NCBI RefSeq assembly: GCF_030811715.1
Contig: NZ_JAUSRH010000004.1
Coordinates: 186,001-250,000 of the forward strand
Reading direction: 5' to 3'
From: Sinomonas atrocyanea
GTDB lineage: Bacteria > Actinomycetota > Actinomycetes > Actinomycetales > Micrococcaceae
DNA length: 64,000 nt
The notes beneath the pieces were generated by a model. That model saw only the letters and a list, made by a program, of their open reading frames with translations. It was not told where the DNA came from and searched no databases. Shown one piece after another: positions 4,159 to 50,774 of the stretch. Numbering within the stretch: position 1 is the stretch's first letter; every line of letters starts with the position of its first letter. The translations under genes and the position numbers were made by a program.

Positions 4159-5583
4159 ATGGACGACACCCTGCAGACCACGGATTCCCTGCTGGATGCG
4201 ATCACGGCGGCGCCGGGTGCGCCCGGGCAGGAGCTCTTCGATCCGGCCACGGGCGAACTCGTCGGCGTCGCCCCGGTGCACGGCCTGGCCGAGCTCGAGG
4301 CCGCGATCGACGCGGCCAAGGCAGCGCAGCCGGCCTGGGCCGCCGCGGGGCACGAGGCCCGCTCGGCAGCGCTCGTCGTCGCGGCCGACGCCATCGAGGC
4401 CCACGCCGAGGAACTCGCCCGCATCCTCTCCCGCGAGCAGGGCAAGCCCCTCAACGGCCCCAACGCCCGCTTCGAGGTCGGCGCCTGCGCCGCCTGGCTC
4501 CGCGCCGCCGCCGCCACTGTCCTGGAGCCCGAGACCGTCGTCGACGACGGCACCACTAAGGCCGTGCTTCACTACCGGCCCCTCGGCCTCGTCGGGGCCA
4601 TCGGCCCCTGGAACTGGCCCATGATGATCACCGTCTGGCAGATCGCCCCCGCCCTGCGCATGGGCAACGCCGCCATCGTCAAGCCCTCCAGCTACACCCC
4701 ACTGTCCGTCCTGGCCCTCATCCACGTGATCAACCAGGCCCTCCCCGCCGGCGTCCTCACCGTCGTCGCCGGCGACCGGCAGGTCGGCTCCGCCCTGGCC
4801 GAGCACCCCGCCATCGGCAAGGTCATGTTCACCGGCTCCACCGGCGCCGGCAAGGCCATCATCCACTCTTCCGCAGACACCGTGAAGCGCCTCACCCTCG
4901 AACTCGGCGGCAACGACGCCGGCATCGTCCTGCCCGACGCCGACCCACAGGCCATCGCCGAGGGCGTCTTCTGGGGCGCGTTCATCAACACCGGCCAGAC
5001 CTGCGCCGCCCTCAAGCGCCTCTACGTCCACGCCGACATCTACGACCAGGTCTGCCAGGCCCTCACCGACTACGCCCGCAACGTCCCCATGGGCGTGGGC
5101 CTGGAGGAGCAGAACGTCCTCGGCCCCCTCCAGAACGCCTCGCAGTACGCGATCGTGAAGGACCTCGTCCAGGCCGCCAAGGACTCCGGCGCCCGCATCC
5201 TCCTCGGCGGAAACCCCGACGAGGACGCGCCGGGCCACTTCTACCCCACCACCCTCGTCGCCGACATCGACAACACCAACCCCCTCGTCACCGAAGAGCA
5301 GTTCGGCCCCGCGCTGCCCATCATCAAGTACTCCACGGTGGACGAGGCCGTCCAGATGGCCAACGCCCTCGAAGTCGGCCTCGGCGCCTCCGTCTGGTCC
5401 AGTGACCGCGAAAAGGCGCGCGAGGTCGCCCACCGCCTCGAGGCCGGCAGCGTCTGGATCAATGCCCACGGCGTCGTCCACCCCATGGCCCCCTTCGGCG
5501 GTGCCAAGCAGTCCGGCTACGGCCTCGAGTTCGGCGTCGAGGGACTCAAGGCCCTCGGCCAGCCCCAAGTCATCCACGGCTGA
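4159..5583 (+). CDS. NAD(P)-dependent aldehyde dehydrogenase
   Basis: This 474-residue cytoplasmic enzyme oxidises an aldehyde to the acid. It carries the full aldehyde dehydrogenase fold. The cofactor-domain motif is GAIGPWNWPMM (about residue 150), GSTGAGKAI follows, the general-base Glu is in LELGGND (about 250), and the catalytic Cys is in NTGQTCAALKR (about 285). A C-terminal APFGGAKQSGYG motif completes it. Length is normal. It resembles succinate-semialdehyde/betaine-type dehydrogenases but the substrate cannot be assigned. The ATG follows GAGGAGG at 4147-4153 with good spacing. A strong terminator follows at 5642, so it is probably monocistronic. Confidence 0.92.
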   Translation: MDDTLQTTDSLLDAITAAPGAPGQELFDPATGELVGVAPVHGLAELEAAIDAAKAAQPAWAAAGHEARSAALVVAADAIEAHAEELARILSREQGKPLNGPNARFEVGACAAWLRAAAATVLEPETVVDDGTTKAVLHYRPLGLVGAIGPWNWPMMITVWQIAPALRMGNAAIVKPSSYTPLSVLALIHVINQALPAGVLTVVAGDRQVGSALAEHPAIGKVMFTGSTGAGKAIIHSSADTVKRLTLELGGNDAGIVLPDADPQAIAEGVFWGAFINTGQTCAALKRLYVHADIYDQVCQALTDYARNVPMGVGLEEQNVLGPLQNASQYAIVKDLVQAAKDSGARILLGGNPDEDAPGHFYPTTLVADIDNTNPLVTEEQFGPALPIIKYSTVDEAVQMANALEVGLGASVWSSDREKAREVAHRLEAGSVWINAHGVVHPMAPFGGAKQSGYGLEFGVEGLKALGQPQVIHG

Positions 5584-5641
5584 CCATCACCGCTGAGGCA
5601 TACATCAACGAGATCAATAACTGACAGCTCATATATCCATC

Positions 5642-5674
5642 GAGGGGGCGTCGGCACCGTGCCGGCGCCCCCTC
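5642..5674 (+). terminator. Strong hairpin after aldehyde dehydrogenase
   Basis: Arms 5642-5657 and 5659-5674 pair along their whole length with one G-U pair, closing on a very small loop. It lies 58 bp after the dehydrogenase stop codon and before the kinase gene. Confidence 0.8.
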
Positions 5675-5759
5675 GGCCCTCTCCGGCGGAAGGAGCGCCG
5701 CAGCAGGCAGTCCACTAGGCTTGATCTACCGGATGCGGCAGGGCGAGGAGGGGCACGAG

Positions 5760-7106
5760 GTGGCCGAGAGCGACACGGGGTCGGACCCCGTCCTCGTCGG
5801 CGGCAGGTACCGGCTCCTCGAACTCGCCGGCAGCGGGGCGATGGCCACCGTCCACCGGGCCCGCGACGAAGTCCTGGGCCGCGATGTGGCCGTCAAGACC
5901 TTCCGCGCCCATGCCTCCGATCCCCGTCGCGAGGAGCGCCGGCGGAGTGAGATGCAGGTCCTCGCCCGCCTCAACCACCCCAGCCTCGTGCGGCTCTACG
6001 ATGCCGGCACCGACGCGCAGGACGACGGCACCCACCACGTGGCCTATCTCGTCATGGAATTCGTGCATGGCACGGACCTGCGGAAGCGGCTCGCCTCCGG
6101 CCCGCTGACGCACGACGACGTGCGGCAGCTCGGTCTCGATCTCGCCGGTGCGCTGGCCTGCGTGCATTCCCTCGGGATCGTCCACCGCGACATCAAGCCT
6201 GCCAACATCCTGGTGCCCGACCCGGCACCGGGGCGGCGCCAGCCCGCGAAGCTGACCGACTTCGGGATCGCACGGCTCACCGACGCATCGCGGCTCACCG
6301 TCACCAACACGACGATCGGCACGGCCAACTACCTCAGCCCGGAACAGGCACGGGGCGAGAAGGTCGGTCCGGCGTCGGACATCTACTCTCTCGGTCTGGT
6401 GCTGCTCGAGTGCCTCAAGGGCTCCATGGAATTCACGGGAGGCGCCGTGGAGGCCGCCGTCGCCCGGCTCCTGCGCTCCCCGAGGATCCCCGATGACCTG
6501 GGTGAACTCTGGGCTCCCCTGCTGGCGCGGATGACGGCGCGCGACCCTGCAGACCGGCCGACCGCGGCGGAGGTCCTGGGCGTCCTCCGCGGTGAGCTCC
6601 CGGCCGCGGGACCGGGCCCGGCGCAGAGCGGGGCGACGGAAGTCCTTCCTCCGGCCTCGCATCCTTCGCCCACGCGCGTCCTCCCTGCCCGGGACACCCG
6701 TCCCACGACAGCCCGCACCCCCGTTGTGGGCCCGGATGCCCCGGGGACACAACGGACCGCCGCCCCCGGGCCCCGAGCGACGACACCGCCGGCGGGCGCG
6801 CGCCCCGGTCGGCGGCGCACCCAGGGCCGGGCCCTCGTGAGGGCAGCGGTCGTGGTGGGAATCATCGCCGTGCTGCTCGTGGTGGTGCCCTTGGCGCTCC
6901 GCGCGGCCATGCTGCCGTCGGGGCCGGTCCAGCCCGCACCAGCGTCTCCCGCCCAGCCCGCTACGGGGGCCTCCGAGGACCCGGCAGCCCCCGATCCTGC
7001 CCTGACATCCCCGGCGTCCATGTCCGTCCCCGCGCCCCGTGAGGGGAAGGTCAAGGGCAAGGAGAAGAAGCCCCACGAGGCGCCCCCGCGCGGTTCCGGG
7101 GGGTAG
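5760..7106 (+). CDS. Membrane-anchored Ser/Thr protein kinase
   Basis: This PASTA-less bacterial Hanks-type kinase has about 448 residues. Visible catalytic features are the Gly loop in LLELAGSGAMATVHRARD, Lys in DVAVKTF, the HRDIKPANIL loop, DFG in LTDFGIARLT, and the activation segment ending NYLSPEQARG, then DIYSLGLVLLECL. After residue 260 come a Pro/Thr/Ala-rich linker, a basic patch, one membrane helix (VVVGIIAVLLVVVPLALRA) and a short basic extracytoplasmic tail with no sensor domain. The GTG at 5760 follows AGGAGG at about 8 nt; an in-frame ATG (5733) and TTG (5721) lie upstream just after a TAGGCT -10-like box, so the start is uncertain. Confidence 0.88.
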   Translation: MAESDTGSDPVLVGGRYRLLELAGSGAMATVHRARDEVLGRDVAVKTFRAHASDPRREERRRSEMQVLARLNHPSLVRLYDAGTDAQDDGTHHVAYLVMEFVHGTDLRKRLASGPLTHDDVRQLGLDLAGALACVHSLGIVHRDIKPANILVPDPAPGRRQPAKLTDFGIARLTDASRLTVTNTTIGTANYLSPEQARGEKVGPASDIYSLGLVLLECLKGSMEFTGGAVEAAVARLLRSPRIPDDLGELWAPLLARMTARDPADRPTAAEVLGVLRGELPAAGPGPAQSGATEVLPPASHPSPTRVLPARDTRPTTARTPVVGPDAPGTQRTAAPGPRATTPPAGARPGRRRTQGRALVRAAVVVGIIAVLLVVVPLALRAAMLPSGPVQPAPASPAQPATGASEDPAAPDPALTSPASMSVPAPREGKVKGKEKKPHEAPPRGSGG

Positions 7107-21165: not shown

Positions 21166-21261
21166 TTATCCACAAGTTGTGGGAAAACCCGTGGATACCG
21201 GGGCGCCGCACGGAACTACATCGGTGTGAGTTATCCACGGCGTGGACAACGCTGTGGACAA
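21166..21261. other. DnaA-box cluster C1
   Basis: Perfect actinobacterial DnaA boxes are TTATCCACA at 21166-21174 and TGTGGACAA at 21253-21261. Near-matches are TTATCCACG at 21231, CGTGGACAA at 21241 and CGTGGATAC at 21190. The cluster lies about 17.7 kb left of oriC, between a repeat cluster and the 3' end of the pirin-acetyltransferase gene. Confidence 0.75.
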
Positions 21262-22745: not shown

Positions 22746-22876
22746 TTATCCACAGGCTGGGGACAAGACCTGTGCGTCAGCCCCGGGTGTGCCGGCGATG
22801 GCGCGGTCCGGCGCCCCGGCGACCATGAACTACACCGCTGTAAGTTACGCACACTGTGGACATGCGCTGTGGATAA
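22746..22876. other. DnaA-box cluster C2
   Basis: Perfect boxes are TTATCCACA at 22746-22754 and TGTGGATAA at 22868-22876. Near-matches are TTACGCACA at 22845 and TGTGGACAT at 22855. The right half (22828-22877) is clearly homologous to 21213-21262 of cluster C1. It lies in the 339-bp space upstream of both the pirin fusion and the ArsR gene. Confidence 0.75.
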
Positions 22877-23897: not shown

Positions 23898-23947
23898 ATC
23901 CACAGCGGTCCACAGCCTCAGCCGGGAGTTGTCCACAGGCTGGGGAC
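23896..23947. other. DnaA-box cluster C3
   Basis: A perfect TTGTCCACA lies at 23939-23947, with near-matches AATCCACA (about 23898) and CGGTCCACA (23907-23915) upstream. A TTGTGCACA at 24038 and TGTGG motifs inside the following terminator add weaker copies. It starts at the end of the AHSA1 gene. Confidence 0.6.
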
Positions 23948-24051
23948 CCGGGCGGCCGGGCGGCGTGCCCCTCGCCCCGGATCGCCGCGTCGCCCCCGCG
24001 ACGACGGGGCCGCGGGCGCTGGGCGCGGTCCCGCAGTTTGTGCACAGATGT

Positions 24052-24091
24052 GGAAAACCCCTGTGGAGAAGGCCCTCCACAGGGGTTTTCC
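24052..24091. terminator. Perfect 17-bp bidirectional terminator
   Basis: Arms 24052-24068 and 24075-24091 are fully complementary with a 6-nt loop. GGAAAACCCC on one side and GGGGTTTTCC on the other give an A-run before and a T-run after the core stem, so it can end transcription from both sides. It separates the ArsR-AHSA1 operon from the convergent rhomboid gene. Confidence 0.88.
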
Positions 24092-38666: not shown

Positions 38667-39180
38667 GGACGCGTTCCGCCTTTCATCGCTGTCTCATTGG
38701 CCGCGGGGGCACACGTTCAGGGGTGCCGGCCGGGTCCGGCCAGGGCCTCGGTTCGAGGCGGCGGACCCACAGCAAGCGTTGAGCACAGCTTAGCCCCATG
38801 GGAGCTCACGGGTTCAAGCCAGAGCGGCTGGCGCCGGTTGGCCTTCGGTCGAGGACTCGTGCTGTCCGGTCGGGGCGGGGCAACTGTTGGCTAACGGTCT
38901 GGAGATTCTTGTAATTGGTGGTGTTAATAAGTGCTGTGGAAACTGTGGATAACCGGCTCTGGCCGCGGACTGGCGCGGAACTGGCCTGTTCATCCGGTGT
39001 TGATCCCGGCCGTCGAGCCTGAGGGCGGCCTGTGGATGCCCGGATTCGTGTCATTCGGGCTCTCCACAGCGGGCCTGGGGGTTTTAAGCCCATGGGGGCA
39101 GGATGTGCACTTAACCATCCACAGGCTTGTCCACAGGTGCCTGTTAATAAGGCACGCACGGGCGCGCGAGGCTCTGTTGG
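38667..39180. other. Chromosomal replication origin (oriC)
   Basis: The 514-bp space between dnaA and dnaN has perfect DnaA boxes TGTGGATAA (38944-38952) and TTGTCCACA (39127-39135). Near-matches are at 38935, 39031 (TGTGGATGC), 39060 (CTCTCCACA) and 39115 (CCATCCACA). An AT-rich unwinding candidate around 38905-38935 (TTCTTGTAATTGGTGGTGTTAATAAG) adjoins the left box. A second TTAATAAG occurs at 39144. The genes diverge functionally from here, as expected for the initiation site. Confidence 0.92.
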
Positions 39181-40605
39181 CTACAGGCCTCGCTGGGCCT
39201 GCTTGATCTTGTTCGTCAGCTCCGTCACCTGGTTGTAGATCGCGCGGCGCTCGGCCATCAGCTCGCGGATCTTGCGATCGGCGTGGATGACCGTGGTGTG
39301 GTCGCGGCCGCCCAGGACCTGCCCGATCTTCGGGAGCGACATGTCCGTCAGCTCGCGGCACAGGTACATCGCGATCTGGCGGGCCGTCACGAGCGTGCGG
39401 GTGCGGGACTTGCTGTTGAGCTCGTCGACCGTGAGCTTGAAGTAGGCCGCGGTCTCCGTCAGGATCTGCTCCGCCGTGATCTCGAGGGCGGACTCGTCGG
39501 TGATGAGGTCCTTGAGCACCATCTCGGCCAGGGCGACGTCGACGGGCTGCTTGTTCAGGCTCGCGAACGCTGTCACACGGATCAGGGCGCCCTCGAGCTC
39601 ACGGATGTTCGCCGAGATGCGGGACGCGATGTACTCGAGCGCGTCGTCCGGCGCCGAGAGGCCCTCGCTGTTGGCCTTCTTGCGGAGGATCGCGATACGG
39701 GTCTCGAGGTCCGGCGGCTGGATGTCGGTCAGGAGGCCCCACTCGAAGCGGGACTTCATGCGGTCCTCGAACCCGTGCAGCGCCTTGGGGGGCTGGTCCG
39801 AGGTGATGACAACCTGCTTGTTGCTGTTGTGCAGGGCGTTGAACGTGTGGAAGAACTCCTCCATGGTCCCCGTGCGGCCGGCGAGGAACTGGATGTCGTC
39901 GATCAGGAGCAGGTCCACGTTGCGGTACGTGGTCTTGAAGCTCGTGCCCTCGTCGTCGCGGATGGAGTTGATGAAGTCGTTGGTGAACTCCTCGGAGTTC
40001 ACGTACCGGACCCGGATGCCGTTGTAGAGGCGGCGGGCGTAGTGGCCGATCGCGTGCAGGAGGTGCGTCTTGCCGAGGCCGGAGTCGCCATAGATGAACA
40101 GCGGGTTGTACGCCTTGGCCGGCGCCTCCGCCACCGCGACCGCGGCCGCATGGGCGAAGCGGTTCGAAGCGCCGATCACGAACGTGTCGAACACGTACTT
40201 CGGGTTGAGGCGGCTGACCTCCTGGGACGTGCTCGGCGGCGTCGGTGCCGGCCGCAGCTCCTCGCGGATCGCCTCGCGCATCTCGGGACGCTGGACCGGC
40301 TCGAACGTCTCGGCCCGGACGGGGACGAGGTCGGTGTCGACGTCGATCGCGCACCGGATGTCCTCGGAGAAGACCGAACGGAGTGCGTCGTCGAGGGCAG
40401 ACTTGACCTGCCCCTGCAGGACCTCGCGCGTGAGCTCGTTGGGAACGGCGACCAGGAGGGTGGAGCCGATCAGCCCCTGCGCCTGCGCCAGCGAGACGAA
40501 GCCGCGCTGGCGCGGCGAGACCCGGTCATCCTCCTCGAGGAGGCGCACCACGCGGCGCCACGAACTGCCAAGGGTGTTGGCTTCGTTGGCTTCCTCTGGT
40601 CCCAT
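39181..40605 (-). CDS. dnaA: Chromosomal replication initiator DnaA
   Basis: This roughly 474-residue AAA+ initiator binds the DnaA boxes and melts oriC. Domain I is residues 1-90; a short Pro-containing linker follows. Walker A is FIYGDSGLGKTHLLHAIGHY, Walker B is LLLIDDIQFLAG, sensor motifs follow, and domain IV ends with the DnaA signature LGGRDHTTVIHADRKI. The ATG at 40605 is preferred over an upstream in-frame start at 40632 because AGAGGAG lies 5 nt before it. It is transcribed away from oriC's far side from a promoter in 40606-41206. Confidence 0.97.
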   Translation of the reverse strand: MGPEEANEANTLGSSWRRVVRLLEEDDRVSPRQRGFVSLAQAQGLIGSTLLVAVPNELTREVLQGQVKSALDDALRSVFSEDIRCAIDVDTDLVPVRAETFEPVQRPEMREAIREELRPAPTPPSTSQEVSRLNPKYVFDTFVIGASNRFAHAAAVAVAEAPAKAYNPLFIYGDSGLGKTHLLHAIGHYARRLYNGIRVRYVNSEEFTNDFINSIRDDEGTSFKTTYRNVDLLLIDDIQFLAGRTGTMEEFFHTFNALHNSNKQVVITSDQPPKALHGFEDRMKSRFEWGLLTDIQPPDLETRIAILRKKANSEGLSAPDDALEYIASRISANIRELEGALIRVTAFASLNKQPVDVALAEMVLKDLITDESALEITAEQILTETAAYFKLTVDELNSKSRTRTLVTARQIAMYLCRELTDMSLPKIGQVLGGRDHTTVIHADRKIRELMAERRAIYNQVTELTNKIKQAQRGL

Positions 40606-40749
40606 GTGCTCCTCTACCTGCCTGCTTCGCATCTCACGCCCTCGCTGCCCTCGCGTCCGTGACGCGACGATGACCGGGGGCGAACCGGACGCGGGCTGGG
40701 AGGTTTTTGTCCCCCCGTGGGTGCGCCCGCATCCTCTGAACCGCTTGTT

Positions 40750-44403: not shown

Positions 44404-44476
44404 ACTCCCGCGGGAGGACGGGTTGAGCCGTTAGTCTAGGGAGAGGCAATCGACGCGAATCGAGAGTGAGTTGACA

Positions 44477-45517
44477 GTGACCAGTGGCGAGACGTCGGCC
44501 CAGCGCATACCTCCCTTTTTGACGCTGGGGTCTGCGCGCGCCACGGCCGGCGGGACCACGGAAGCCGGTCCCCAGCCACCGTCGGTCCCGACCGAGCTCT
44601 TGGCTGCGCCGAAGGGCGATGCCCAGTCCTTCCTGCAGAACCTCGACGAGGGCAGCCCGATCGCGAGCCAGCTCGCGAGCGAGGCGCGGCGCCGCGAGAG
44701 ACTCAGCGGACGCACGCTCCGCCGTCCCGAGCGGACCCGCGTCTTCACCGTGTCGAACCAGAAGGGCGGGGTCGGCAAGACCACGACGACCGTCAACATC
44801 GCTGCGGCCCTGGCCTCGGCGGGGATGCAGGTCCTCGTCATCGACATCGACCCTCAGGGCAACGCGTCGACAGCACTCGGCATCGAACACCATTCTGAAG
44901 TCGAGAGCATCTACGACGTCCTCATCAACGATGCCCCACTCAAAGACGTCGTCGCCCCGTGCCCGGACGTTCAGAACCTCGTCTGCGCGCCGGCGACGAT
45001 CCACCTCGCGGGAGCCGAGATCGAGCTCGTCTCGCTGGTGGCCCGCGAGCAGCGCCTGCGCCGCGCCATCGACAACTATGCCGCGGAGCGCGAGAAGGCG
45101 GGGCTGGAGCGCCTCGACTACATCTTCATCGATTGCCCGCCGAGCCTCGGCCTGCTCACCGTCAACGCCTTCTGTGCGGCGACCGAAGTGCTGATTCCGA
45201 TCCAGTGCGAGTACTACGCGCTCGAGGGATTGAGCCAGCTGCTCAAGAACATCGAGATGATTCAGAAGCACCTCAACGCCGAGCTGCGCGTCTCAACGAT
45301 TCTCCTCACCATGTACGACGGCCGTACGAACCTCGCGGCCCAGGTGGCGGCGGAAGTGCGGGAGCACTTCCCCGATCAGGTCCTGGAGGCAGTGGTGCCG
45401 CGCTCTGTCCGGATCTCGGAAGCACCTAGCTACCAGCAGACGGTGCTGACGTACGATCCGACGTCGACGGGTGCACTGTCCTACCTCGAGGCCGCGGCCG
45501 AGATCGCGGAACGCTAG
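44477..45517 (+). CDS. parA: Chromosome-partitioning ATPase ParA
   Basis: This roughly 346-residue Walker-type ATPase moves ParB-parS complexes over the nucleoid. The deviant Walker A is [22 protein letters not shown], followed by [32 protein letters not shown] and the C-terminal KEVVPRS-like [15 protein letters not shown] 90-residue N-terminal extension rich in Pro/Ala is longer than in most ParA proteins. The GTG at 44477 fits GAGTGAG at 6-7 nt; a TTG at 44471 is in frame but too close to that site. Confidence 0.95.
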
Positions 45518-45596: not shown

Positions 45597-46760
45597 ATGA
45601 GCGAGAAGCGCCGAGGACTGGGCCGGGGCCTAGGAGCCCTCATCCCGAGCACGGCCCCGGCTAGCGGCTCGGCGACTCCGTCACGCCCTGTCGACCTGTT
45701 CTTCCCGGATAGCGGACGGCGGACCGGCCAGGAGCCGCAGGAGAAGGCGGAATCCCGCGCGCCAGAGGCGGAGGCAGCCGCCGAGGAGCATGCCGACAGC
45801 AGCGGAAGCCAAGCCGCTCTGAAGTCTTCGTCGTCTGCGGAGGCGAGCTCGGGCGCCGACTCGGCAGAGGCTGAGCAGCCGGTAGCCAAGGCGCCGCGCG
45901 GTCGGTCGAAGCGCGCGCAGGGCGAGGATGAACTTGACCTCGTTGAGGTCCCGGGAGCCCAGTTCGCTGAGGTCCCCGTGGAGGACATCCACCCCAATCG
46001 GAAGCAGCCTCGCACCGTCTTCGATGAAGAGGACATGGCCGAACTCGTGCACTCCGTGCGGGAGATCGGCATCCTCCAGCCCATCGTCGTACGGAAGTCA
46101 ACCGAATCCGGTAGCGAAAGCTATGAACTTGTCATGGGTGAGCGCCGCTGGCGCGCTGCCAAGGCGGCTGGACTCACCGCGATTCCCGCGATCGTCCGCG
46201 ACACCGGTGACGACGCACTGCTGCGCGATGCTCTGCTGGAGAACCTCCACCGGAGCCAGCTGAATCCTCTCGAAGAGGCCGCGGCCTACCAGCAGCTCCT
46301 CGAGGACTTCGGAACCACGCACGAAGAGCTTGCGGACCGTCTGGGCCGTTCGCGGCCGCAGGTGTCCAACACCATCCGGCTTCTGCGCCTTCCTCCGCTC
46401 GTGCAGCGGCGGGTTGCTGCGGGTGTACTGAGTGCTGGCCATGCCAGGGCGCTCCTCTCTCTGCCTGACGACGCGGCCATCGAGAGGATGGCCCAGAAGA
46501 TCGTCGCCGAAGGATTGTCTGTGCGGGCCACCGAGGAGGCCGTCGCCCTGTATCAGGAGCCCCAAGAGGCGCGGCGCGCTTCGACTCGGAACAATGCGCG
46601 TCACGAGCGGCTCGACTTCCTCGCGTCGAGCCTGGCCGATCGCCTCGACACCAACGTCAAGATCACCCTCGGTGCGCGCAAGGGGAAGGTCAGCATCGAG
46701 TTCGCCTCGGTTGAAGACCTCAACCGCATCATGACCCTCATCAGCCCGGAAGAAGAGTAG
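45597..46760 (+). CDS. parB: Chromosome-partitioning protein ParB
   Basis: This 387-residue CTP-dependent clamp loads at parS and spreads. The N-terminus [18 protein letters not shown] contains the ParA-stimulating arginine patch. A 100-residue acidic/Ala-rich linker follows. The ParB core has [27 protein letters not shown] (CTP pocket), [16 protein letters not shown], and the helix-turn-helix [23 protein letters not shown] that reads parS. The C-terminal dimer domain ends [12 protein letters not shown] follows GGGAGGAA. The six parS sites lie directly downstream. Confidence 0.96.
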
Positions 46761-46808
46761 TCTTTCATCGCTGAGATGCATTAGAGGGATGAGCTGGGGA
46801 AGGGGCCC

Positions 46809-46822
46809 GTTTCACGTGAAAC
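46809..46822. other. parS site 1, embedded in the parB terminator
   Basis: GTTTCACGTGAAAC is the centre of a perfect 36-bp palindrome (46798-46833) that also forms a GC-rich hairpin and ends CCTTCC. It lies 38 bp after the parB stop, so the same DNA looks able to serve as centromere site and terminator. Confidence 0.92.
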
Positions 46823-47593
46823 GGGCCCCTTCCTCGTTCTGCAATGGCACCAACAGGCTGCGTTCGGAGGCCTTTGAACCGTGGGCGCGTGTGCCTGGGC
46901 TGAGGTGGCCTTCTCCGGGGAGAGTACCGAACGCACACCGACAGTGCCGGTACCGCCCGCGTGGGCTCGCGTGATGTTTGGCCCGATCACGTTGTTGACG
47001 GGTATCACCACCGCGACGGCGGGGCTTTCGTCCCGCTCTGCTCGCCATTAGCTCACGGCCCAAAGAGCAAACCGCGGTGCGGCAAAGGGATCCGCTGGCG
47101 CGATCCCTACTGGGCGGGGCGCATTGTCTGAATCCAAAGGCGAAATGGCCCCAACTAGGCGGTGTCGGCGCTGCTGCTGGGGCGGATTGTCGCTCGGCGC
47201 CGAGTCTCGATGGCTTGAGCGATGGACGTTGAGCTCGTCTCGTAAGCGTTGAAGCGAGTATCTTCTGTCAGCAGTGCGGGTCATGAGAAATCGATCGCAG
47301 CGCAAAGGGTGCGACAAGCCGCGCGTCGGCGATCAGCCGAGGGATCTCGTGGGATCGATAGAGTTTTTCTCCGGTATGGGCGGCCCCGCTGGATGCCTGC
47401 ACGTGGCCACGAGCCATGCGCGTGCGCTCCACGCCGTGCGGGTGTGGATGCCGCGATATACGCTCAATGCCGGCCGCGGCAGGCCACCGCGCGACCTGGT
47501 GCAAGATCACGCCCCACAACTGCAAGAGCTCACTGACGGGCCGTCCCCATGACGCGGTCCGAGACGCGGAGCTCGACTGTTCTCTCTGGGGTC

Positions 47594-47607
47594 GTTTCAC
47601 GTGAAAC
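47594..47607. other. parS site 2
   Basis: GTTTCACGTGAAAC, a perfect match to the 14-bp core of the bacterial parS consensus. Confidence 0.95.
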
Positions 47608-48041
47608 GCTCGGCTCCTCTGGTCCGCCCATCGCACCAGAGACTCACGTGAAGCTGCCGCGTCGACGTCTTTTAGGAGGCTGGCGCCATGACGCGGCTGG
47701 CTGGCTTGTGGCGGCCGGTCGACGTGGACGAGCCTAGGTTCGCACCGATAAGTCGCCACATTCGTCCGCCCAGGTCGGTCTACACGCCTGCGCGGCGATC
47801 ATCGGGAGCCTCGACAGCTATCGGTGGACCGCGATGAGTGGCGGCTCCGTACGATGCCGATCTCTCGGGGCGCCCTGCTGGCAGCTACCAGGGCCGGCGA
47901 AGGCTCCCGACCCGTGGCTCCCGGCGGGGAAGCCTCGGCGGCATCTCATGAGCCCTGCCAGCGTCAAAGAGTGCTTTGGGGCGCGTCGCATGTCCCCAGT
48001 GCGCCTCCCGAGATTGACCGCCGCGACTGTCGAACACACTG

Positions 48042-48057
48042 TGTTTCACGTGAAACA
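48042..48057. other. parS site 3
   Basis: TGTTTCACGTGAAACA, a perfect match to the full 16-bp parS consensus. Confidence 0.97.
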
Positions 48058-48543
48058 TGCTCGGTCTTTGGCCGTGCGTCCGGAGTCCGGTGGGTACATG
48101 AGATGTGCAGGCGCAGTGTTTGACCACGGTCTAGAGGCGACCCGTCCGACGATGCGGAAGAGGGAGCCTCGCTTCTCATCGGGCATAGCTGAAGCGGATT
48201 GGGGTCACACAGCCCGTGGACAGCGGGAACCGGGCTGGCGGCGGGTCGCTCCCTCGGCCTCCGGCGGTGGGCTGGAAAGAGTCGCCGATCTATACTCCAG
48301 CCGGCGTTTTCGCCACAAGGCAGGGACTGGAGCGGCGCGCGGCCCAGGGGCACACCGATCATCGAGCGAGGTTGGGCAGGGAACAAGCCAGGGCACGGTC
48401 CAGTACCTATTCGTGGCGCCCGGTTTAGCCGGCCTCTAGACAGGCTGCCAGACAGGCTGGCTGTGGATCGCTCACGCGCGTCGTGGCTTGCCGCAGTTGA
48501 GGCACGCGATCTACACGAGAATGTCCGAGTGCCGCGACAGCCC

Positions 48544-48621
48544 TGTGGATATCCCTGTGCGTGGCCGCGGCAGTTCCGATCGCGGCCTGTGGATAACACT
48601 GGGGATAAACTCTGTGGATTG
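48544..48621 (+). other. DnaA-box cluster D1
   Basis: TGTGGATAT (48544), perfect TGTGGATAA (48588-48596), GGGGATAAA (about 48601) and TGTGGATTG (48613), all in the same orientation, lie between parS sites 3 and 4. Confidence 0.7.
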
Positions 48622-48923
48622 CACCACTTCTCGGCACCTCCGTTGCTCACGAAAGAGGGCGCAGGCACCGGGATCCTCCGATGGGTGCCGACCACACTGG
48701 GTATCTCCGTGCCGGGAAGCGGCGGAGATGGCTGGTGCCGTACTCGCTCCGCTCGCCCTACAGCGACCGCGCAGTAAATGAGACGAGATCAGGACGAATA
48801 TCGCGCCAAGATTGGCACCGCAGACGGCGCCGATGTCGCTTGACTTCCGCTTCTGCTCGCCCCGGGTACCTCGATAAGGGCCGCCACCCAGACCCGACGC
48901 TGCGGCTTCCGACCCAGCGTGCC

Positions 48924-49027
48924 TGTGGATTGCCGAAGCTGGCTGGACCGTGGGCAGCCAACTGTGGATAGCGGCTGTGGATAACGCTGTGGAGAACGAC
49001 CAGTCAGTCAGCCTGTGGTGTGGATAA
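48924..49027 (+). other. DnaA-box cluster D2
   Basis: TGTGGATTG (48924), TGTGGATAG (48963), perfect TGTGGATAA (48976-48984), TGTGGAGAA (48988) and perfect TGTGGATAA (49019-49027), all in one orientation, lie 65 bp before parS site 4. Confidence 0.75.
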
Positions 49028-49091
49028 CTGTCGAGGCTTGCGCACGACCTCGCGGTGAGCGGCCCCTAGGCAAGGGCAAGGGCGTGATGAA

Positions 49092-49105
49092 GTTTCACGT
49101 GAAAC
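49092..49105. other. parS site 4
   Basis: GTTTCACGTGAAAC, a perfect match to the 14-bp parS core. Confidence 0.95.
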
Positions 49106-49996
49106 CTCCTGGGCGGTTCGTTCTGTCAGTGCGAAGTGCGCGTCAACAGGCCCGTCCTTTTGGTGCCATGCCCTCTCCATCGCGAATCAGCGGACCCCCC
49201 TGGCACCGTGGACACCCTTCGTGAGCGAAGCACCAGCGCAGGAACACCCCTCGCACCAGCCGGCAAATGAGGGCTGCCGAGCAGGCGGGCTGCGAACGAA
49301 GGCGCTGCATGATGGCCCGCGCGGGTGGTGTAGGGCAGGTCCTGCCGCAGACCGGGCTGCGACCGGTATCCTCGTCGTCTTGCCCGCCTCATCGTTGTCC
49401 TGGAGTGTCACGATAGATTCTCGATCGGAAGGCCGCCGTGTCGGCGGCAGCACGGCGCCGTGGGCAGGAGCTGACCGGTGGCCTGTGGGGCCTAGACCCA
49501 ATGGATCGCTCCAAGAGGTCACGCTGTCGAGTACACCCAGTCGATCTATTGCGTTCCATGGCCTCATGATGGCGTCGACAGGGCAGCTTCTGTGCCTGTC
49601 TGCCGAGGGCAATCCTGGGGGCCACAGCCGGGAGCTCCGCCGAGCGGTTCCCCCGTCCACGGTCGAGACGCAGCGACGTACTCCTTTGTGCGATGTAGAC
49701 CAGGGGGATAGCGGCAGCCACTCGTGGAAATTGCCTCGCGGCCGCTGGTTCCGCCGCAGCTCGTGGCAGGGGTAGTGAGGGAACAGGGTAACGCATCTTT
49801 GAGCATCCGAATCGTGCGCGGATCCATTACGCACAGAACCACGATGGGCATCATTGGCGTGGCTCAAAGGGGCGTCGTCGCTTGGCCAGCGGGCGGTCTC
49901 GGCTCAACTTTGCGGTTCTGAACGCTGCCAGCTGGCTCTAATGCGCGCGTGCAGCGGGGTGGGAGGTGATCCAATACAGCGCGAACCGGCAGGGCA

Positions 49997-50012
49997 TGTT
50001 TCACGTGAAACA
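49997..50012. other. parS site 5
   Basis: TGTTTCACGTGAAACA, a perfect match to the full 16-bp consensus. Confidence 0.97.
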
Positions 50013-50333
50013 ACGCGCCCGGCGCGCAGCGGCACTGCGATCCTGCCCGCGCCCTAGCGTACATAGGTCGTCGTACCAGCTGCCCGATGTGGAAGTGCGA
50101 GTGAGTAGAGCGTACCCGGTAGCCTTCTGTCCGCTGAGCGATCCCGGTTTGCGAGCGCAGAGACGAGACAGCATGCATGCCCAGCATGCTTTGCCCTCGC
50201 GACCGTGCCGGGGGACAGAGATGGAGCCCTATGCGTAGCTACCGGCGCCGGAAGACTTTCCCCTTTCGTGCTGATTCCCCTCCTGCGGCTGTGCAGGCCT
50301 CGCGGGAAAAGTGTGGCGTCGTGGTCCGGAGCT

Positions 50334-50347
50334 GTTTCACGTGAAAC
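50334..50347. other. parS site 6
   Basis: GTTTCACGTGAAAC with a T before it, 45 bp from the trxA terminator; it marks the right end of the parS array seen here. Confidence 0.95.
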
Positions 50348-50391
50348 GTCGACCGCCGTGGCGTACTTTCGCATTCTTGGGGGCATAGGAA

Positions 50392-50424
50392 AAGGGGAGG
50401 ACGCGTCTACCACGTCCTCCCCTT
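50392..50424 (-). terminator. trxA terminator
   Basis: A perfect 12-bp stem (50392-50403 with 50413-50424), rich in AAGGGGAGGACG, has a 9-nt loop. It lies 20 bp after the trxA stop. Confidence 0.8.
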
Positions 50425-50444
50425 GAGCCAGGGTCGCGAGAGAG

Positions 50445-50774
50445 CTACTTCGCGAGAACCTCGTTCCACTCCTTCTCGAAGTACTGCTTCGGCCGCGCGC
50501 CGATGACGGTGCCCGTGACCTTGCCCTTCTCGAAGAGGTACACGGCAGGAATCGACGTGATCCCGTACTCCGCAGCGATGTTCGGGTTGTTGTCGACATC
50601 GACCTTCACGACATCCACCTTGTCGGCGTACTCGACCGAGATGTCGTCGAGGATGGGGCCGAGCTTGCGGCACGGCCCGCACCATTCAGCCCAGAAGTCC
50701 ACAATCACAGGCTTCTCGGACATGAGGACCTTGTCAGTGAACTCGGCGTCGGTGACGTTCTTGGCGTTGCTCAT
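50445..50774 (-). CDS. trxA: Thioredoxin
   Basis: This 109-residue cytoplasmic disulfide reductase has the active site FWAEWCGPCRKLGP and the cis-Pro loop GITSIPAVYLFEKG. It is reduced by the thioredoxin reductase encoded 27 bp upstream on the same strand. ATG follows an AGAGAT-type weak ribosome site. It ends the trxB-trxA unit before the centromere region, and is transcribed toward the origin. Confidence 0.97.
   Translation of the reverse strand: MSNAKNVTDAEFTDKVLMSEKPVIVDFWAEWCGPCRKLGPILDDISVEYADKVDVVKVDVDNNPNIAAEYGITSIPAVYLFEKGKVTGTVIGARPKQYFEKEWNEVLAK

Follow-up and report, generated by a model that had tools for sequence, protein, structure and literature searches.

We are highly confident, from its sequence, that the 3.7-kb interval between parB and trxA, close to the replication origin of this Sinomonas chromosome, is a maintained, gene-free chromosomal centromere, and comparison with relatives makes a centromere role well supported. 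The middle of the gap (48544-49027) contains a bipartite array of DnaA boxes in two head-to-tail clusters, which the first-pass annotation had missed; it appears that a single piece of DNA serves both chromosome segregation and the control of replication. Our overall reading, to which we assign a probability of about 0.6, is a ParB/SMC loading zone that is bounded by two hairpins and encloses a datA-like DnaA-binding locus.

The analyzed window spans 64 kb of contig 4 in a draft genome of 4.23 Mb, and the closest named match to its ParB comes from Sinomonas cellulolyticus (76%). The gene order is dnaN and dnaA on the minus strand, then rnpA, yidC, rsmG, parA, and parB on the plus strand, followed by the gap and by trxA and trxB on the minus strand. 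ParB, DnaA, DnaN, RsmG, TrxA, and TrxB are assigned above curated cut-offs. The names rnpA and yidC rest on position and sequence alone, and the parA matches fall below cut-offs, to models that are mostly of the plasmid type. The genome also encodes SMC and ScpA (TIGR02168 and PF02616, both over cut-off), and it thereby has the sequence features expected with a ParABS centromere: several consensus parS near oriC, parA and parB, and an SMC-ScpA condensin. The main features of this region are:

39181-40632, minus strand, dnaA (TIGR00362 above cut-off)
44471-45517, plus strand, parA, ParA-type partition ATPase directly before parB (ParA-superfamily matches; start codon uncertain)
45597-46760, plus strand, parB, ParB/Spo0J family (TIGR00180 above cut-off)
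46761-50444, no strand, parB-trxA interval, gene-free, probable centromere region; without coding signal; 15 further Sinomonas loci are likewise gene-free, save for a far-end gene in one
50445-50774, minus strand, trxA, right neighbor, convergent with parB (TIGR01068 above cut-off)

Exact GTTTCACGTGAAAC cores occur six times over 3.5 kb of the gap and nowhere else in the 4.23-Mb genome. When up to three mismatches to the 16-mer are allowed, the 64-kb window still yields the same six parS, against a chance expectation of 0.02. The earlier count of six perfect cores is therefore correct, and four of its positions are exact; those given as 48042 and 49997 are off, one outer base having been counted in. 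The parS sites and border hairpins are:

46797-46834, plus strand, terminator-like hairpin of parB (17-bp stem, -35 kcal/mol, z -6.4), whose inner stem is parS 1
46809-46822, no strand, parS 1, within the parB terminator-like hairpin, exact core; the arms reach 11 bp past the core
47594-47607, no strand, parS 2, exact core
48043-48056, no strand, parS 3, exact core
49092-49105, no strand, parS 4, exact core, start-to-start 73 bp past the last DnaA box
49998-50011, no strand, parS 5, exact core
50334-50347, no strand, parS 6, exact core
50392-50424, minus strand, trxA terminator-like hairpin at the right border (14-bp stem, -28.2 kcal/mol), a conserved island

Most Arthrobacter-type and some Sinomonas genomes (among L006-L030 and others) carry an extra parS close to the start of parA, some 2.2 kb ahead of the parB end, where the genome of the window has none.

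Both parB and trxA converge on the gap, and a strong hairpin stands at either border. The parB hairpin is stable and lies directly 3' of the stop codon, as expected of an intrinsic terminator; the U-tract expected behind it is absent (tail CTCGTTCT). A consensus scan of the window for U-tailed terminators flagged neither border hairpin because their U-tracts are weak. U-tracts are often missing in high-GC actinobacteria. A T-rich tail does follow the parB hairpin in L026 and L042. Three other parS of the window were tested, and none forms an unusual hairpin. Across species, where a parS lies no more than 120 bp from the parB stop, its palindromic arms continue past the core by a median of 8.5 bp (n = 42), versus 0 for the 474 other parS. 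Where the gap is short, as in Psychromicrobium (69 bp), one parS-bearing hairpin with T-rich tails makes up the whole junction. The parS within the parB terminator-like hairpin had gone unnoticed before, and we found no report of parS within terminators, the parB terminator included, in the open-licence literature.

The gap has no coding character. Everywhere between 46801 and 50400, the best-frame codon score stays within -0.26 to -0.49 bits/codon, the level of genuine intergenic DNA, and most neighboring genes score about +0.2 to +1.0 bits/codon. The coding fraction is 0.00 in the gap versus 0.92 in its flanks. No Pfam match above cut-off was obtained for ten of the longest ORFs of the gap, no Rfam family or tRNA was found in it, and no ORF is conserved across 15 related gaps, except where ORFs overlap the DnaA boxes. 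The first-pass annotation had seen no convincing gene in the interval, and codon score, Pfam, ORF conservation, and coding fraction all agree with it; the codon-bias analysis that it had proposed scores the interval as intergenic, with no frame coding. Its remark on a visibly lower GC content stands against most of the window (0.64 in the gap, ~0.70-0.75 elsewhere), but the adjoining trxA and trxB are equally low (0.63-0.65), so the drop by itself is not distinctive. In two complete relatives (G198 and G104), no non-coding stretch within 200 kb of dnaA is longer than the gap core, bar one of 6 kb in each, which in G198 is an rRNA operon.

For the comparison across relatives, Sinomonas was represented by 16 loci, with 14 other genomes of the genus searched. 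All 16 gaps measure 3.1-6.8 kb and carry four to seven parS, and their coding fraction is near zero except in L110, which has a gene at the far end. This gene, a strongly coding 540-codon ORF at the trxA end (4970-6590 of the L110 gap), may have been inserted into the gene-free zone recently. Most gaps of Arthrobacter, Pseudarthrobacter, and Paenarthrobacter are also gene-free, at 4-9 kb with 5-11 parS. One Arthrobacter gap (L032) extends to 9.2 kb without coding signal, and a few Arthrobacter-type loci (L007, L025, L027, L029, and L037) hold one or two genes. The junction is short and bears one parS in several Rothia loci, in that of Kocuria, and in both of Psychromicrobium. The slot mostly holds genes, and no parS, in Cellulomonas and other families. 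It is only to these other families that the earlier expectation of protein genes in the slot applies; it fails for Sinomonas and for most Arthrobacter-type genomes.

Between close relatives, the gap shows an identity of 0.44-0.48 versus 0.82-0.86 for parB. We read the former as the level of unrelated sequence; what stands out as conserved islands is parS, both clusters of boxes, and the hairpins at the borders. The parS are spaced more evenly than random (combined p about 2e-5 in Sinomonas), and their number increases with gap length (rho 0.49), though the p-values for spacing and number are nominal only because related genomes are not independent. The parB-trxA comparison suggested in the first-pass annotation thus finds the gene-free state and the number of parS kept, with the DNA between them diverged past alignment. 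A gene-free, parS-rich gap that is retained in otherwise unalignable sequence fits a selected centromere and not the debris of gene loss. The conserved site number and gene-free state also favor the dedicated loading zone that had been put forward earlier, where ParB and condensin would load.

The DnaA-box array is arranged as follows:

48544-48608, minus strand, DnaA-box cluster 1, with boxes at 48544 (one mismatch), 48588 (TTATCCACA), and 48600 (one mismatch)
48609-48962, no strand, unconserved spacer between the box clusters; the box-to-box distance here is 388 bp
48963-49027, minus strand, DnaA-box cluster 2, with boxes at 48963 (one mismatch), 48976 (TTATCCACA), 48988 (TTCTCCACA), and 49019 (TTATCCACA)

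Cluster 1 is a conserved island in comparison with L105 and L106, as is cluster 2, and the distance from the last box to the parS 4-type site is similar in both of these loci (72-75 bp). A distance of 354 +/- 33 bp separates the two clusters in the 31 loci where both can be scored with exact boxes; such a pair was not obtained in three loci (L007, L011, and L109). The spacer sequence is unconserved despite its steady length. Orientation is nearly uniform across species, with 109 forward and 2 reverse exact boxes (185 to 9 when up to one mismatch is allowed), and neighboring boxes are most commonly phased by 12 or 13 bp, then by 24-25. In every Sinomonas locus, parS flank the array on either side, and its first exact box falls 37-51% of the way along the gap. 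Genome-wide, the array is the only place with at least three same-strand exact boxes inside 500 bp. Scored as at least two exact forward boxes on a tree of ParB, DnaA, and ParA, it is present in 32/32 members of one clade (SH-aLRT 99, quick method) and in 0/42 others, which points to a single gain. The array flanks are unrelated between loci, and a full multiple alignment of them was not achieved. Many relatives have parS-rich gaps that lack the array, so it is not needed for a centromere. Pseudarthrobacter-type genomes carry one parS inside the array, 104-126 bp past cluster 1, and several Paenarthrobacter-type genomes have one 72-96 bp ahead of its first box.

Two box clusters with a spacer between them resemble a bipartite origin such as that of Helicobacter pylori (PMC8235120), and the chromosome might in principle start replication at the array, within the centromere, with the array as the whole oriC or as half of a bipartite one. 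It supplies the DnaA-box cluster expected of oriC, its exact boxes outnumber those of the dnaA-dnaN gap, and its position is conserved. We nevertheless consider this reading quite improbable, and the array is probably not oriC, as judged by two-sided skew, the AT-rich element, and box layout at dnaA-dnaN. The conserved oriC features are found at the latter site:

38667-39180, no strand, dnaA-dnaN gap, likely oriC, with inverted boxes at 38944 and 39127 and an AT-rich stretch at 38903-38942

The inverted pair, about 180 bp apart, is present in nearly all family members examined, array-less ones included, and the AT-rich stretch adjoins a box, with a recurrent motif around GTGGTGTTAATAA in the genus. 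No AT-rich unwinding element was found at the array, where the lowest 40-bp GC averages 0.44 (range 0.40-0.50) versus 0.35 (0.30-0.40) at dnaA-dnaN. A change in the sign of skew is expected at a main bidirectional origin. However, on either side of the array the GC skew of non-coding DNA is positive in 16/16 Sinomonas loci (pooled 0.080 and 0.072) and, with few exceptions, in Arthrobacter-type loci, so that replication forks appear to cross the array in one direction. No strand-composition switch was thus found at the array, by a GC skew marker that is only partly validated: in two complete genomes used as a control, the intergenic skew of this replichore carries the expected sign over most bins, and that of the other replichore is near zero. 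No usable position for the origin emerged from simple cumulative GC skew with change-point analysis over 400 kb in two complete genomes. Strand-biased 6- and 7-mers favor the leading-strand form on the plus strand in both halves of the gap; 8-mers are too few. The flanking genes are also directed at the array. As a side result, CGGGGGAG-type octamers are strongly strand-biased on each side of dnaA (77 vs 16 in G198 and G104, 400 kb) and are a candidate FtsK-orienting motif for the genus.

Dense head-to-tail boxes near oriC fit either regulatory sign, and the array might instead activate initiation, through DARS-like reactivation of DnaA or by passing DnaA to oriC 9 kb away. This seems unlikely to us given that the origin-near clusters of Bacillus subtilis and Streptomyces coelicolor are reported to repress initiation (PMC4585315). 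There is little chance that the repeated TGTGGATAA words bind another protein altogether, such as a nucleoid-associated protein or an accessory protein of ParABS; they are assigned to DnaA by consensus alone, but their core is the textbook DnaA box and is identical to the dnaA-dnaN boxes of the same genomes. An equally slim prospect is that the gap is relaxed DNA left by gene loss, as the first-pass annotation had offered for a second reading, with parS placed by drift and the DnaA boxes incidental. The DNA between the sites is indeed unconserved, and other families do have genes in the slot. Yet a gene-free state of 3-9 kb persists in dozens of species without recognizable gene remnants, and neither the even parS spacing and the correlation of their number with length nor a box array of fixed orientation, phase, and spacing agrees with such an origin.

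The starting point for a loading zone with an embedded DnaA-binding locus is what is seen in the sequence, a parS-dense, gene-free zone between two convergent, hairpin-ended genes. By analogy with ParABS biology, ParB-CTP clamps would load at parS, slide over the zone, and recruit SMC-ScpAB, and ParA would move them. The border hairpins would end transcription from parB and trxA, and the loaded clamps would then meet little RNA polymerase traffic; such a transcription-free state may be the reason that the zone stays gene-free. Whether the zone is shielded from RNA polymerase in this way we regard as evenly balanced. DnaA very probably binds the array, judging from the boxes, whose head-to-tail arrangement could accommodate a DnaA oligomer, as in a datA- or DBC-like locus. 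The array is a non-coding box cluster near but outside oriC, as datA is, and lies ~9-10 kb from the origin (about 9.5-10 kb from dnaA-dnaN). At this distance it would be copied very soon after initiation; if precedents hold (PMC4585315, PMC5742627), the copied array would then sequester or inactivate DnaA and curb renewed initiation, at the very site where ParB and ParA act. We give a function as a DnaA sink or negative regulator of initiation, which is argued from analogy, about one chance in two. More speculatively, ParA or ParB might act on array-bound DnaA. It is doubtful that parS and array form one composite element coupling initiation to segregation, with DnaA in the ParB condensate handed over or inactivated by ParA or ParB; if they did, initiation control would be read out at the centromere. 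In B. subtilis, ParA control of DnaA is independent of parS location (PMC7614844), which weakens the case for a forced coupling of the two.

Clusters of parS near oriC (PMC7083940) and clusters of DnaA boxes near oriC are already known. Corynebacterium glutamicum, likewise an actinobacterium with parS clustered near the origin, has a single cluster of ten 16-bp parS, almost every one of them intergenic, with ParB and SMC loading demonstrated (PMC7083940). These parS are distributed over 35 kb and lie 73 kb from oriC, in contrast to six within 3.5 kb in one gene-free gap ~6-10 kb from dnaA in Sinomonas, and the passages on that cluster describe no DnaA array. In S. coelicolor and B. subtilis, DnaA-box clusters that are close to but outside oriC, like the Sinomonas array, are reported to repress untimely initiation (PMC4585315 and PMC5742627). 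Unlike those clusters as cited, the Sinomonas array lies among parS and is bipartite, head-to-tail, and of fixed spacing, and its function is putative. The datA locus of E. coli is also a non-coding DnaA-box locus near oriC of conserved position, but it requires an IHF site (PMC4585315). It is not known to be linked to a centromere, and E. coli is not known to have a chromosomal ParABS system. The open-licence literature, as screened by title, abstract, and term counts, yielded no report of a multi-kilobase gene-free centromere in the family or of a parB-trxA centromere, and none of a centromere-embedded DnaA array or of DnaA boxes near parB in Arthrobacter. The DnaA-box clusters near oriC in S. 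coelicolor and B. subtilis were reportedly described by Smulczyk-Krawczyszyn in 2006 and Okumura in 2012.

The parS clusters known near origins, that of C. glutamicum among them, extend through tens of kilobases of DNA with ordinary gene content. A gene-free, multi-kilobase block that is kept in dozens of species amid sequence turnover is an unusually clean natural example, suited to the study of ParB spreading and SMC loading apart from transcription. An array that was gained once and has been kept in orientation, phase, and spacing offers a tractable site for asking if replication timing and segregation are physically coupled.

DnaA boxes were also observed elsewhere. Pairs in opposite orientation, about 90-130 bp apart, occur in the window at 21166-21261, 22746-22876, and 23929-24070, in intergenic or gene-end positions. 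A small cluster of mixed orientation lies ~55 kb from dnaA in the same genome (L119 9921-10063, which is contig 4, 280320-280462).
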